Assembly (NCBI RefSeq): GCF_000214355.1
Contig: NC_015577.1
Span: forward strand, 62,001-126,000
From: Leadbettera azotonutricia ZAS-9
Lineage (GTDB): Bacteria > Spirochaetota > Spirochaetia > Treponematales > Breznakiellaceae
Direction: 5' to 3'
DNA length: 64,000 nt
The translations under genes and the position numbers were made by a program. The notes under the pieces were generated by a model. That model did no database searches. It had not been told where the DNA came from and was given only the letters and a program-made list of their open reading frames with translations. Shown piece by piece: positions 11,745-38,383 of this stretch (within the stretch, counting starts at the first letter, position 1; every line of letters begins with the position of its first letter).

Positions 11745-11792
11745 AAAAAAATGAAGCGCCACGCATCCTGACGCCATATAAGGTGTGGAGGC
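11745..11792 (+). repeat. Interspersed repeat copy 1 carrying a ribosome site
   Basis: This 48-base unit begins with seven A, continues as TGAAGCGCCACGCATCC, and ends in GGTGTGGAGGC. It matches the copy at 32405-32452 at all but one base. The GGAG near its end is the ribosome binding site of the Rpn gene starting at 11797. Confidence 0.85.
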
Positions 11793-11796
11793 TTTT

Positions 11797-12606
11797 ATGC
11801 ACAAAGAACAGCTATCTCCCCTGTATGACTATGCCGTAAAGATCATCTTCGGCGACCAGAAGAACATCGAGAACCTGGCAGGACTTCTCAAGCCGATTTT
11901 AGACCTGCCACCGGAGGATTATGACAAGCTCACCATTGTCGATCCTTTCATGAAGCGGCTCTTCCGCAAGGACAAGCTGGGAATTTTGGATGCAAAGGTG
12001 ACGACCAAAACAGGCCGTATCATCAATGTGGAGATCCAGGTAAAGCCCTTTTCCACTTTGAGGCAGCGTATCATTTACTACTTGGCAAAACTGCTGGTTG
12101 AACAGCTTAAAAGTGGCTTTGATTACGGAAAACTCGTGGAGACCGTATGCGTGGTGATATGCGATCATGTGCTTATACCAGAGGAGGAGGGTTTCCTCAA
12201 TATCTATGGTCTCAGGAACGCCAAATCAGAAAACCTGTTTACGAAATTGCTAAAACTCTATATAATAGAGTTACCGAAGCTGCCCAAGGATGACGATGGC
12301 TCTCCTATGTGGGCCTGGCTTCAGTTTTTCAAGTGCAGGAAAGAGGAGGAATTCGACATGCTCGCAGAAAAACACCCCGAAGTTCGCCCTATTGTTGCGG
12401 AATACAAAAAACTCACCTGGAGCGAACGGCGGCGCATGATCGCTGACCTCAAGGAAAAATACCGCCGTGATGACGCGGCTGTTCTGGCAGATGCGCTTAT
12501 GGATAATAGCCGGGAAATAGCACGGGCATTGAAAACCCAGGGTTATTCTATAGATAAAATCGCGGCCGCCACCCGGCTTTCGCAGGAAGAAATCGAAACT
12601 TTGTGA
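11797..12606 (+). CDS. Rpn-family recombination-promoting nuclease
   Basis: A 269-residue protein of the Rpn / 'PD-(D/E)xK transposase' family. The nuclease core is visible as GILDAKV followed by INVEIQV (Asp ... Glu-x-Gln). The C terminus ends in a predicted helix-turn-helix-like segment (GYSIDKIAAATRLSQEEIETL is the last part). E. coli RpnA proteins cut DNA and promote recA-independent recombination. The ATG at 11797 is chosen because the repeat just upstream supplies GGAGG; a GTG twelve bases earlier lies inside the repeat. The gene is multicopy and mobile-looking in many spirochaetes and opens the eroded island here. Confidence 0.8.
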   Translation: MHKEQLSPLYDYAVKIIFGDQKNIENLAGLLKPILDLPPEDYDKLTIVDPFMKRLFRKDKLGILDAKVTTKTGRIINVEIQVKPFSTLRQRIIYYLAKLLVEQLKSGFDYGKLVETVCVVICDHVLIPEEEGFLNIYGLRNAKSENLFTKLLKLYIIELPKLPKDDDGSPMWAWLQFFKCRKEEEFDMLAEKHPEVRPIVAEYKKLTWSERRRMIADLKEKYRRDDAAVLADALMDNSREIARALKTQGYSIDKIAAATRLSQEEIETL

Positions 12607-30556: not shown

Positions 30557-30785
30557 GGAAACGCTAAGCTATCCTATTCGGGATGGCGCGGTTCCATTGG
30601 GAAAAACACCGATATTTTGGATACGGTTTTTTCTCAAGGCTCAGTCCTCGAAGCCTGCTGAAATTCAGAAATCCCAAGATGGGGTTCCGGCATACTCAAA
30701 GTTCCTGGCTTATGGTTTTGCCATAAAGCAAAGCCTTTCACAGTTACGGGTTAGCGGGGGATTTTCACCCCACTTCCTTTGATGT
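30557..30785 (-). promoter_or_regulatory. Cobalamin riboswitch
   Basis: Read on the minus strand the leader shows the core of the cobalamin aptamer. It starts with GGAAGTGGGGTGAAAATCCC, followed by CGCTAACCCGTAACTGTGA. After a hairpin (GCTTTATGGC with its partner) comes the B12-box-like AAGCCAGGAACTTT, and GTATGCCGGAA. These match the conserved GGUGNAAAUCC, CCCGCNACUGU and AGYCAGGANACC elements. The aptamer occupies about 30670-30785, with peripheral hairpins and the regulatory stem down to 30530. It places the twelve genes from 30526 to 18627 under corrinoid control. Confidence 0.9.
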
Positions 30786-31017
30786 ATACAAATTAAGACT
30801 ACAATACTTTTTTTGTTTTGTCCAGTATCCAAGTTTTTGTTGCTTCATACAGTCAAAAAAGGACCGGAAGCCGCTTGGACCCCTGTATATTGCTGCAATT
30901 TATCAAGCGTATAGCGGACTTTTACCGCCTGGTTACTGTCCGTTGCCAGGCGCACAAAAAAGCGGCCCAACATTAGTCAGGCCGCCTATGGTTGTTATTT
31001 AATGCAGATGACAGATG
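30786..31017. other. Region between riboswitch and polymorphic lipoprotein gene
   Basis: About 230 bases without a convincing gene. On the minus strand a start-less frame of about 58 codons runs from near 30950 to 30780 (RLATDSNQAVKVRYTLDKLQ near its beginning); I do not recognise it and it may be chance or an old gene remnant. The operon promoter should lie in the part near 30790-30850, which is AT-rich, but no box pair is convincing. Confidence 0.35.
30955..30985 (-). terminator. Intrinsic terminator of the polymorphic lipoprotein gene
   Basis: On the minus strand GCGGCC (30985-30980) pairs with GGCCGC (30967-30962) across a 12-base loop and is followed by six T. It lies 32 bases after the stop of the lipoprotein gene. 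Confidence 0.75.
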
Positions 31018-32404: not shown

Positions 32405-32452
32405 AAAAAAATGAAGCGCCACGCATCCTGATGCCATATAAGGTGTGGAGGC
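32405..32452 (+). repeat. Interspersed repeat copy 2 carrying a ribosome site
   Basis: This copy differs from copy 1 (11745-11792) at one base in 48 (CCTGATGCC for CCTGACGCC). As there, the GGAGG in its end lies just before the ATG of the following gene (32457), with the same spacing. Confidence 0.85.
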
Positions 32453-32456
32453 TATC

Positions 32457-33482
32457 ATGAAACTTTATCGTGTTCTTTTCAGATGTCTGCTGCCTGCGGC
32501 CCTGGTCTTTTCGGCCTGCGCCTGCTCTACCGAGGCAGCCATTCAAAGGATCCTCGGGGACAGTGCCGAAGCCCCGGTCTTCCTGGATTGCAAGCCCGTT
32601 TCGGATACGGAGATATGCTTCAGCTTCTCCCGGCCTGTAAAGGTGGTATCCCTCCTCTTTGACCCTGCTACGGAGTTTGAGTCCGTCGGGGAGGGCGAAG
32701 AGGTGCTGGTGAGCCTTAAAAGCCCTTTCAAGTCCGGGGAGAGGATCACCGCCGACATTCTGGTGGAAGACGGGAGCCGGAATACCCTCAATGTACTTGT
32801 GCCTTTCAGGACCAGGAACGACCGGATGCCGGCTTTGCTCATCAATGAGCTGCGGACAGAGTATTCCAAGCCCAAGGTGGAATTTGTGGAACTCAAAGCC
32901 CAGAGCGACGGGAATTTAGGGGCTGTGCGGCTTTTCATTGCCAGCAATTCCCTTGCCAAGCCGGTCTATGAATTCCCCCCGGCAGAGGTCAAAGCCGGGG
33001 ATTACATAGTCCTCCATCTACGGACAATTGAAACAGGCTGGGCCGATGAGACCGGGGACGATCTTGCCCTGTCCGGCGGGACTGACGCCCTGGCAACAGC
33101 CCGGGATTTTTGGGTGAATGGGACTTCCAAGCTTTTAAGGAAGACTGATGCAGTGTATCTCATGGATCAGGATAATTCGATCATTGATGGCATATTGATG
33201 AGCGAGAACCCCGACCCCTGGTGGATCAAAGGCGAATTTGCTTCTGCCGCAGAGCTTCTTTCCACAGGGGGCGCATGGCGCCCGGCTTCAGGCGATTTCA
33301 TTGAAAGTTCCGGCATAGCCAGCCCTTCCGAGGCGGTGCTCACCAAAAATGTGGGGACTGCGGCAACCCGGAGCATCTCTAGGGACGAAGCCGTTCCGGA
33401 CAGCAATACCGCTGACGACTGGTATGTGACTGCCACGAGCAACGCAACGCCGGGGAAGGCCAACAGCACGAAGCGGTTCTAG
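32457..33482 (+). CDS. Lipoprotein with lamin-tail-like domain
   Basis: A 341-residue exported protein with signal and lipobox MKLYRVLFRCLLPAALVFSA followed by Cys. The middle (ALLINELRTEYSKPKVEFVE, then GAVRLFIASN and VKAGDYIVLHL) resembles the lamin-tail (LTD) fold found in bacterial surface and nuclease-associated proteins. A C-terminal stretch (DDWYVTATSNATPGKAN) ends with the usual LTD phrase. The ATG at 32457 follows a GGAGG carried by the interspersed repeat. It is monocistronic between divergent and convergent genes. Function unknown; the fold call is moderate. Confidence 0.7.
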   Translation: MKLYRVLFRCLLPAALVFSACACSTEAAIQRILGDSAEAPVFLDCKPVSDTEICFSFSRPVKVVSLLFDPATEFESVGEGEEVLVSLKSPFKSGERITADILVEDGSRNTLNVLVPFRTRNDRMPALLINELRTEYSKPKVEFVELKAQSDGNLGAVRLFIASNSLAKPVYEFPPAEVKAGDYIVLHLRTIETGWADETGDDLALSGGTDALATARDFWVNGTSKLLRKTDAVYLMDQDNSIIDGILMSENPDPWWIKGEFASAAELLSTGGAWRPASGDFIESSGIASPSEAVLTKNVGTAATRSISRDEAVPDSNTADDWYVTATSNATPGKANSTKRF

Positions 33483-37787: not shown

Positions 37788-38249
37788 TCAAAAGGCAACT
37801 GCCTCGAATTCTTCGACAGGGGCGGTTTCTTCTTCGGCTTCATCGTTTTCGGCAATGGAGCTTGAGGGCATTTCTGCCAGGGCTTCGTCGGTCATGGAAT
37901 CCCCGGGGACGGCGTCCTTCTTGAATTCGGGGCGGAATTCCACGTGCTCAGCCACGATGGAAACTTTGGAATGGTACTGACCGTCGGCGCTGGTCCAGTG
38001 GTCCTGCTTGAGGCGGCCGACCACGCGGACGCCGCGGCCCTTTTTGCCCAGGTTGTAGCTGTGCTCGGCAGTCTTGGCCCAGGTTTCCACGTCGAAAAAT
38101 CCCACTTCCTTTTCCGTTCCAGTGTCCTGCTTGAAGTAGCGGTTGGACGCTACAGTGAAGGTGCAAAGGGCTGTGCCCTTGGCAGTGGTGCGGTACAGGG
38201 GATCCCGTACCAGGTTGCCTTCGATCAGGATGGAGTTAAGGTTATTCAT
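37788..38249 (-). CDS. ssb: Single-stranded DNA-binding protein
   Basis: A 153-residue Ssb. The OB fold starts MNNLNSILIEGNLVRDPLYR, with CTFTVASNRYF and VRVVGRLKQDHW. The acidic C-terminal tail (ENDEAEEETAPVEEFEAVAF) is where partner proteins normally bind; it lacks the exact DDDIPF ending but keeps a terminal Phe. The start at 38249 has GGAGG seven bases upstream; the frame continues further upstream without a ribosome site. A hairpin directly abuts that ribosome site, and copy 3 of the interspersed repeat lies about 100 bases upstream. Confidence 0.9.
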   Translation of the reverse strand: MNNLNSILIEGNLVRDPLYRTTAKGTALCTFTVASNRYFKQDTGTEKEVGFFDVETWAKTAEHSYNLGKKGRGVRVVGRLKQDHWTSADGQYHSKVSIVAEHVEFRPEFKKDAVPGDSMTDEALAEMPSSSIAENDEAEEETAPVEEFEAVAF

Positions 38250-38258
38250 AGAGCCTCC

Positions 38259-38276
38259 TTCGGGTTTTGGCCCGAA
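38259..38276 (-). promoter_or_regulatory. Hairpin abutting the ssb ribosome site
   Basis: On the minus strand TTCGGG (38276-38271) pairs with CCCGAA (38264-38259), and the ribosome site GGAGG follows with no gap. A T run precedes the stem. The arrangement could tune translation of ssb. Confidence 0.45.
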
Positions 38277-38345
38277 AAAAATAAGTGTTCCGGCAGGCAG
38301 GCCGCCGGTCATGGGCTCTGCAAAAATGGCAATGCCTATGATAAC

Positions 38346-38383
38346 CTATATATGGTGCTGGGATGCGTGGCGCTTCATTTTTT
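38346..38383 (-). repeat. Interspersed repeat copy 3, diverged end
   Basis: On the minus strand the unit reads A6 TGAAGCGCCACGCATCC and then CAGCACCATATATAGG. It matches copies 1 and 2 over the first half and the CCATATA motif but has lost the GGTGTGGAGGC end. It points towards ssb. Confidence 0.75.

Follow-up and report, generated by a model that had tools for sequence, protein, structure and literature searches.

A promoter-like element shared by ssDNA-recombination, Rpn nuclease and RAYT transposase genes in Leadbettera azotonutricia and its family

The repeat at 11745-11792 in the DNA of Leadbettera azotonutricia ZAS-9 is most probably (at about 0.7) the promoter of a competence-type regulon for the recombination of single-stranded DNA (ssDNA), with nuclease and transposase genes joined to it. 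In the family Breznakiellaceae, the element stands with fixed spacing before ssb, recA, comM, radC, comF, Rpn nuclease genes, RAYT transposase genes and the genes of several envelope proteins.

Three copies lie in the window, i.e. the whole stretch of 64,000 nucleotides that was analysed (positions 62001-126000 of a 3,855,671-bp contig). The 48-bp units at 11745-11792 and 32405-32452, both on the plus strand, are identical at 47 of 48 positions, the sole difference being T vs. C in TGAYGCC. The third copy (38346-38383, minus strand) is diverged and shares an 18-base core exactly with the plus-strand copies. When up to three mismatches were allowed, this core gave 3 matches in the window vs. 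0.05 expected from shuffles. Both plus-strand copies end in GGAGG and the ATG lies 5 bases further on. The sequence-only reading of this DNA had described the repeat, its diverged minus-strand form and the equal distance of GGAGG from the two start codons, all of which were borne out. The minus-strand copy has no GGAGG; the ssb ATG, at 38249, is about 100 bases further and has its own ribosome-binding site.

The 35-nt core of copy 1 (11751-11785, plus strand) scored 31.0 with the cross-genus position weight matrix (PWM). It contains a -35-like TGAAGC (11752-11757), a central CA (11764-11765), CC (11774-11775) and TATA (11777-11780). Outside this core, a GGAGG ribosome-binding site (11787-11791, plus strand) serves a gene of the Rpn/PD-(D/E)XK nuclease family, transposase-like (11797-12606, plus strand; PDDEXK_2, E 4e-41; TIGR01784). 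Copy 2 (32411-32445, plus strand; TGAAGC 32412-32417, TATA 32437-32440, PWM 30.1) is followed by a GGAGG ribosome-binding site (32447-32451, plus strand) and by the gene of a predicted lipoprotein (32457-33482, plus strand), a homologue of which in another genus (L176) is also placed behind the element. Copy 3 (38344-38378, minus strand; TATA 38352-38349, PWM 34.5) is upstream of ssb (37788-38249, minus strand; SSB, E 1.2e-25). The Rpn and ssb identities first read from the sequence were confirmed by these domain matches. For the gene at 32457, the lipoprotein prediction stood and the lamin-tail domain became a possible one, its match (LTD, E 0.0037) being under the Pfam cut-off.

Related genomes carry two ssb genes, the housekeeping one located between rpsF and rpsR. 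Judged by this operon context, the ssb of the window is of the other type, a paralogue outside the rpsF-ssb-rpsR operon. Its 5' leader (38250-38347, minus strand) and those of related loci (L182-L261) contain two directly abutting hairpins between the promoter and ssb (38341-38309 and 38308-38290 in the window), followed by the Shine-Dalgarno (SD) sequence. The first hairpin is long and its sequence is entirely different between genera. The second has the form CCGGCGG-loop-CTGCCGG, with compensatory changes in 4 of 8 pairs. The median folding z-score of the leaders was -2.4 (n=61) and no match to them was present in Rfam; the hairpins may form a regulatory RNA of SSB. The sole Rfam match across the window was a cobalamin riboswitch (30682-30811, minus strand; at the gathering threshold), away from the element.

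The columns kept after refinement were AAGC followed by G/A, CA seven bases past the C, and CC, any base, TATA. The element therefore reads as nAAGC at -35, CC-n-TATA at -10 and CA between them, with A/T-rich tracts upstream. The spacing is rigid, with 17 bases lying between AAGC and the C that opens CnTATA. This arrangement, a pair of conserved blocks held at a fixed distance upstream of gene starts, is that of a -35/-10 promoter. The distance from the first base of CnTATA to the ATG is 12 nt in four of the genome's own sites and 13 nt in one. In six others, all with a GGAGG- or GGGGG-type SD, the ATG is 22-23 nt past CnTATA. In other genomes, the ATG was found exactly 12 nt past CnTATA at 12 of 52 sites, a clear mode; this class includes comF (several genera), a radC, a RAYT and an Rpn gene. 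Given a normal transcription start, the 12-13 nt class is predicted to yield leaderless mRNAs. Since this spacing leaves no room for the element within the mRNA, the element was taken to be a promoter upstream of the transcript and not part of an RNA. A scan of copy 1 found no plain sigma-70 promoter on that strand. A terminator-like match on the opposite strand was rejected, its stem not being kept in the copies and relatives. Visual inspection of copies 1 and 2 suggested a leader peptide (MKRHAS), which was also rejected: its stop is missing from copy 3 and its ATG from other copies.

A search of the genome with the core pattern gave 10 matches at ≤2 mismatches and 0 with the reversed control. 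More sites were recovered with a sequence-only profile (R1) built from 12 sites. The R2 profile (45 positions, built from 19 sites) found 20 strong copies at E < 1e-6, followed by a gap to E 0.02. R2 sites were aligned by anchoring on CCATATA, which accounts in part for the invariance of CCATATA within the genome; no such anchoring was used for the cross-genus profile. Each of the 20 copies points at the start of a gene or, in two cases, at an Rpn gene that has decayed. The repeat thus exists well beyond the three copies of the window and is not randomly placed relative to genes. The targets are ssb, recA, comM, radC and a RecQ-like helicase gene; ten Rpn/PD-(D/E)XK genes (assigned by PDDEXK_2, TIGR01784 or reading-frame similarity); an EEP-nuclease lipoprotein and three further lipoproteins, one with the weak lamin-tail match; and one long signal-peptide protein, outer-membrane-like in appearance. 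An AlphaFold model of this outer-membrane-like target (L056) was unusable (pLDDT 32). Two of the Rpn genes, L066 (G000:C1:2056571) and L062 (G000:C1:2769743), are apparently frameshifted or decayed and have kept the promoter.

With R2, sets of several copies were also recovered from other genera of the family. The genes downstream of these sites were read from the sequence, with the addition of Pfam. The element precedes ssb in 7 other genomes, comF in 6, comM in 5 and radC in 4. Further targets in the relatives were Rpn genes, the EEP lipoprotein, the lamin-tail-like lipoprotein, FMN-binding lipoproteins and the outer-membrane-like family. In two other genera, RAYT-type Y1 transposase genes (L126, L147) were found behind the same promoter. 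A gene-centred test was performed on ssb loci (80 named) and comM loci picked by protein search, so that the motif played no part in their choice. The own-genome PWM scored >8 bits upstream of 38% of ssb (p 5.5e-24 vs. controls) and of 54% of comM (p 1.7e-6 vs. controls; 13 loci with the start placed by script, including the comM of this genome). The same threshold was passed by 0 of 285 control regions upstream of other ORFs and by 0 of 370 shuffles. With the iteratively refined PWM, matches were present upstream of ssb and comM in 90 of 103 regions, an optimistic figure as these sequences had also served to train the matrix. Within the family, scores upstream of ssb were mostly >15. No convincing match was found upstream of ssb in 15 genomes from four other families of the order (best score 7.1), a scan that included a 1.1-Mb T. 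pallidum-like genome. Two genomes of the family, G043 and G053, were weak at ssb; G053 has the element at comM. The best reading is that the regulon is confined to this spirochaete family.

The sequence-only reading had the repeat deliver a ribosome-binding site, as a mobile 5' leader, a small non-autonomous element or a conserved regulatory RNA. Delivery of the ribosome-binding site turned out to be secondary: GGAGG sits outside the conserved core, and a shared GGAGG block is absent from most copies, being restricted to the window pair and to L054, a close Rpn paralogue, which have it in common as a result of recent copying. Over the 48-nt block at 20 sites, the median pairwise identity was 32, and the window pair reached 46 in that register. 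The two window copies, whose genes are unrelated, are 94.5% identical over the 55 bp that run up to the ATG. One is thus probably a recent copy of the other, and the ribosome-binding site looks shared because it was copied along with them. Such copying, like the duplication of Rpn paralogues with the promoter as their left edge, would suit promoters spread by a small mobile (or non-autonomous) element or by a cassette associated with Rpn. This explanation is improbable, however, since the element precedes orthologous ssb and comM over dozens of genera, where the spaced positions are kept and not whole ends. Copies share about 55-75 bp, and the block common to unrelated genes ends at the promoter. 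Defined ends conserved in unrelated contexts, as in a MITE, were not found, and visual inspection of the aligned copies showed no evident terminal repeats. Of the mobile leader, the copying between unrelated genes stands, and the identity of the repeat is better given as a promoter. A cis-acting RNA leader controlling translation, favoured by the two copies that abut an SD and by the structured ssb leader (which is downstream of the element), is very improbable. No pairs were predicted by RNAalifold on the core alignment, the proposed covariation found no support there or in Rfam, and the many ATGs 12 nt past CnTATA are too near for an element within the mRNA. What was kept of the regulatory RNA is a conserved regulatory element at gene starts.

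The main rival is a regulon for DNA damage or ssDNA stress (SOS-like), whose promoter would answer damage and serve repair. The targets recA, ssb, radC and the RecQ-like helicase gene are repair genes, and Rpn overexpression sets off SOS in Escherichia coli (PMC10327210). We consider this rival unlikely, though less so than the mobile element or the RNA leader: no lexA, uvr, recN, ruv or polymerase gene is among the 20 targets, comM and comF are targeted in several genera, and the conserved columns hold no palindromic operator of the LexA-box kind.

The promoter of a competence-type ssDNA regulon would be read by RNA polymerase with a dedicated sigma factor, or with the housekeeping sigma factor and an activator. 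Transcription would start on the ATG or no more than a few bases from it in the leaderless class and about 10 nt upstream of it in the SD class. The programme may ready the cell to receive and recombine incoming ssDNA, like late competence genes elsewhere, and the nuclease and transposase genes would have joined this programme. By analogy with those genes, the regulon may serve transformation. ComEC is present in T. azotonutricium (PMC6299819). The two dprA loci of the genome (L364, G000:C1:1561222; L365, G000:C1:2404133) had no PWM match >10. Among the strong matches of the genome-wide profile search, none was at comEC, comEA or pilus genes.

The genome encodes RpoD, FliA, four other group-2-like sigma factors and ECF sigma factors. 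In a sigma factor tree with six related genomes, the clades of L263 and L264 had members in f2 and in the four sampled genomes of f1. They were not resolved in the two f3 genomes, save for a long-branch f3 sequence beside L264. L265 was more widespread. L267 was found in this genome only and was rejected as a family-wide regulator. In the helix that recognizes the -35, L264 (SPETVRQIE) diverges from RpoD (TRERIRQIE), for which reason L264 is the first candidate for the regulator. We tentatively propose, as a possibility well short of even odds, that the competence-type ssDNA regulon of the Breznakiellaceae is under a dedicated sigma factor, for which the L264 clade is the best candidate, and that Rpn and RAYT genes captured the promoter so as to be expressed exactly at the entry of foreign ssDNA, much of this from leaderless mRNAs.

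No description of this element, or of a competence or natural-transformation regulon in spirochaetes, was found in the open-access literature. The element predicts a coordinated programme of DNA uptake or recombination in termite-gut spirochaetes. For a species that can be cultivated, it yields a testable gene list together with a predicted binding site and predicted starts of transcription. The function of Rpn and RAYT is debated (DNA mobilization or phage defence). Both gain a regulatory context here, in the form of a promoter common to ssb, recA, comM and radC.

The element was compared with three known systems. The heat-shock (RpoH) promoter, CTTGAA/CCCCATnT, resembles it in that C-rich bases immediately precede the AT run of the -10 and that the -35 contains GAA. 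It differs from the element, which has nAAGC at -35 and a longer spacing and does not serve chaperone genes. The CIN box of SigX (ComX) is TACGAATA, a different site sequence. The late competence regulon of streptococci that SigX controls is likewise promoter-type, and shares recA, radC, a comF-type gene and a second SSB (ssbB) with the regulon described here; its core holds comFC, radC, ssbB and recA (PMC5069739). Here, by contrast, dprA is without a site and no comEC or pilus site is among the strong matches. No relative of SigX was identified. The CRP-S (Sxy/CRP) sites of the Pasteurellaceae precede ssb, comM, radC and comF, like the present element; in H. parasuis they stand before radC, comF, comM and ssb (PMC5809987). 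A CRP-S site is a 22-bp palindrome-like operator (TTTTTCGATC...GTCGAAAAA), whereas the element is an asymmetric promoter pattern; the palindrome was absent from the refined consensus when this was set beside the PMC5809987 sites. The two systems also differ in that dprA has no element here and that Rpn/RAYT genes are included. Of the marks of late competence, the shared site before comM, ssb, radC, comF and recA is present and that before dprA is lacking. Because the site is unlike those of CRP-S and SigX and the dprA hallmark has no copy, the regulon was called competence-type and was not filed as a member of either system. Streptococci, too, have a second SSB under a late-competence promoter (SsbB; PMC5069739).
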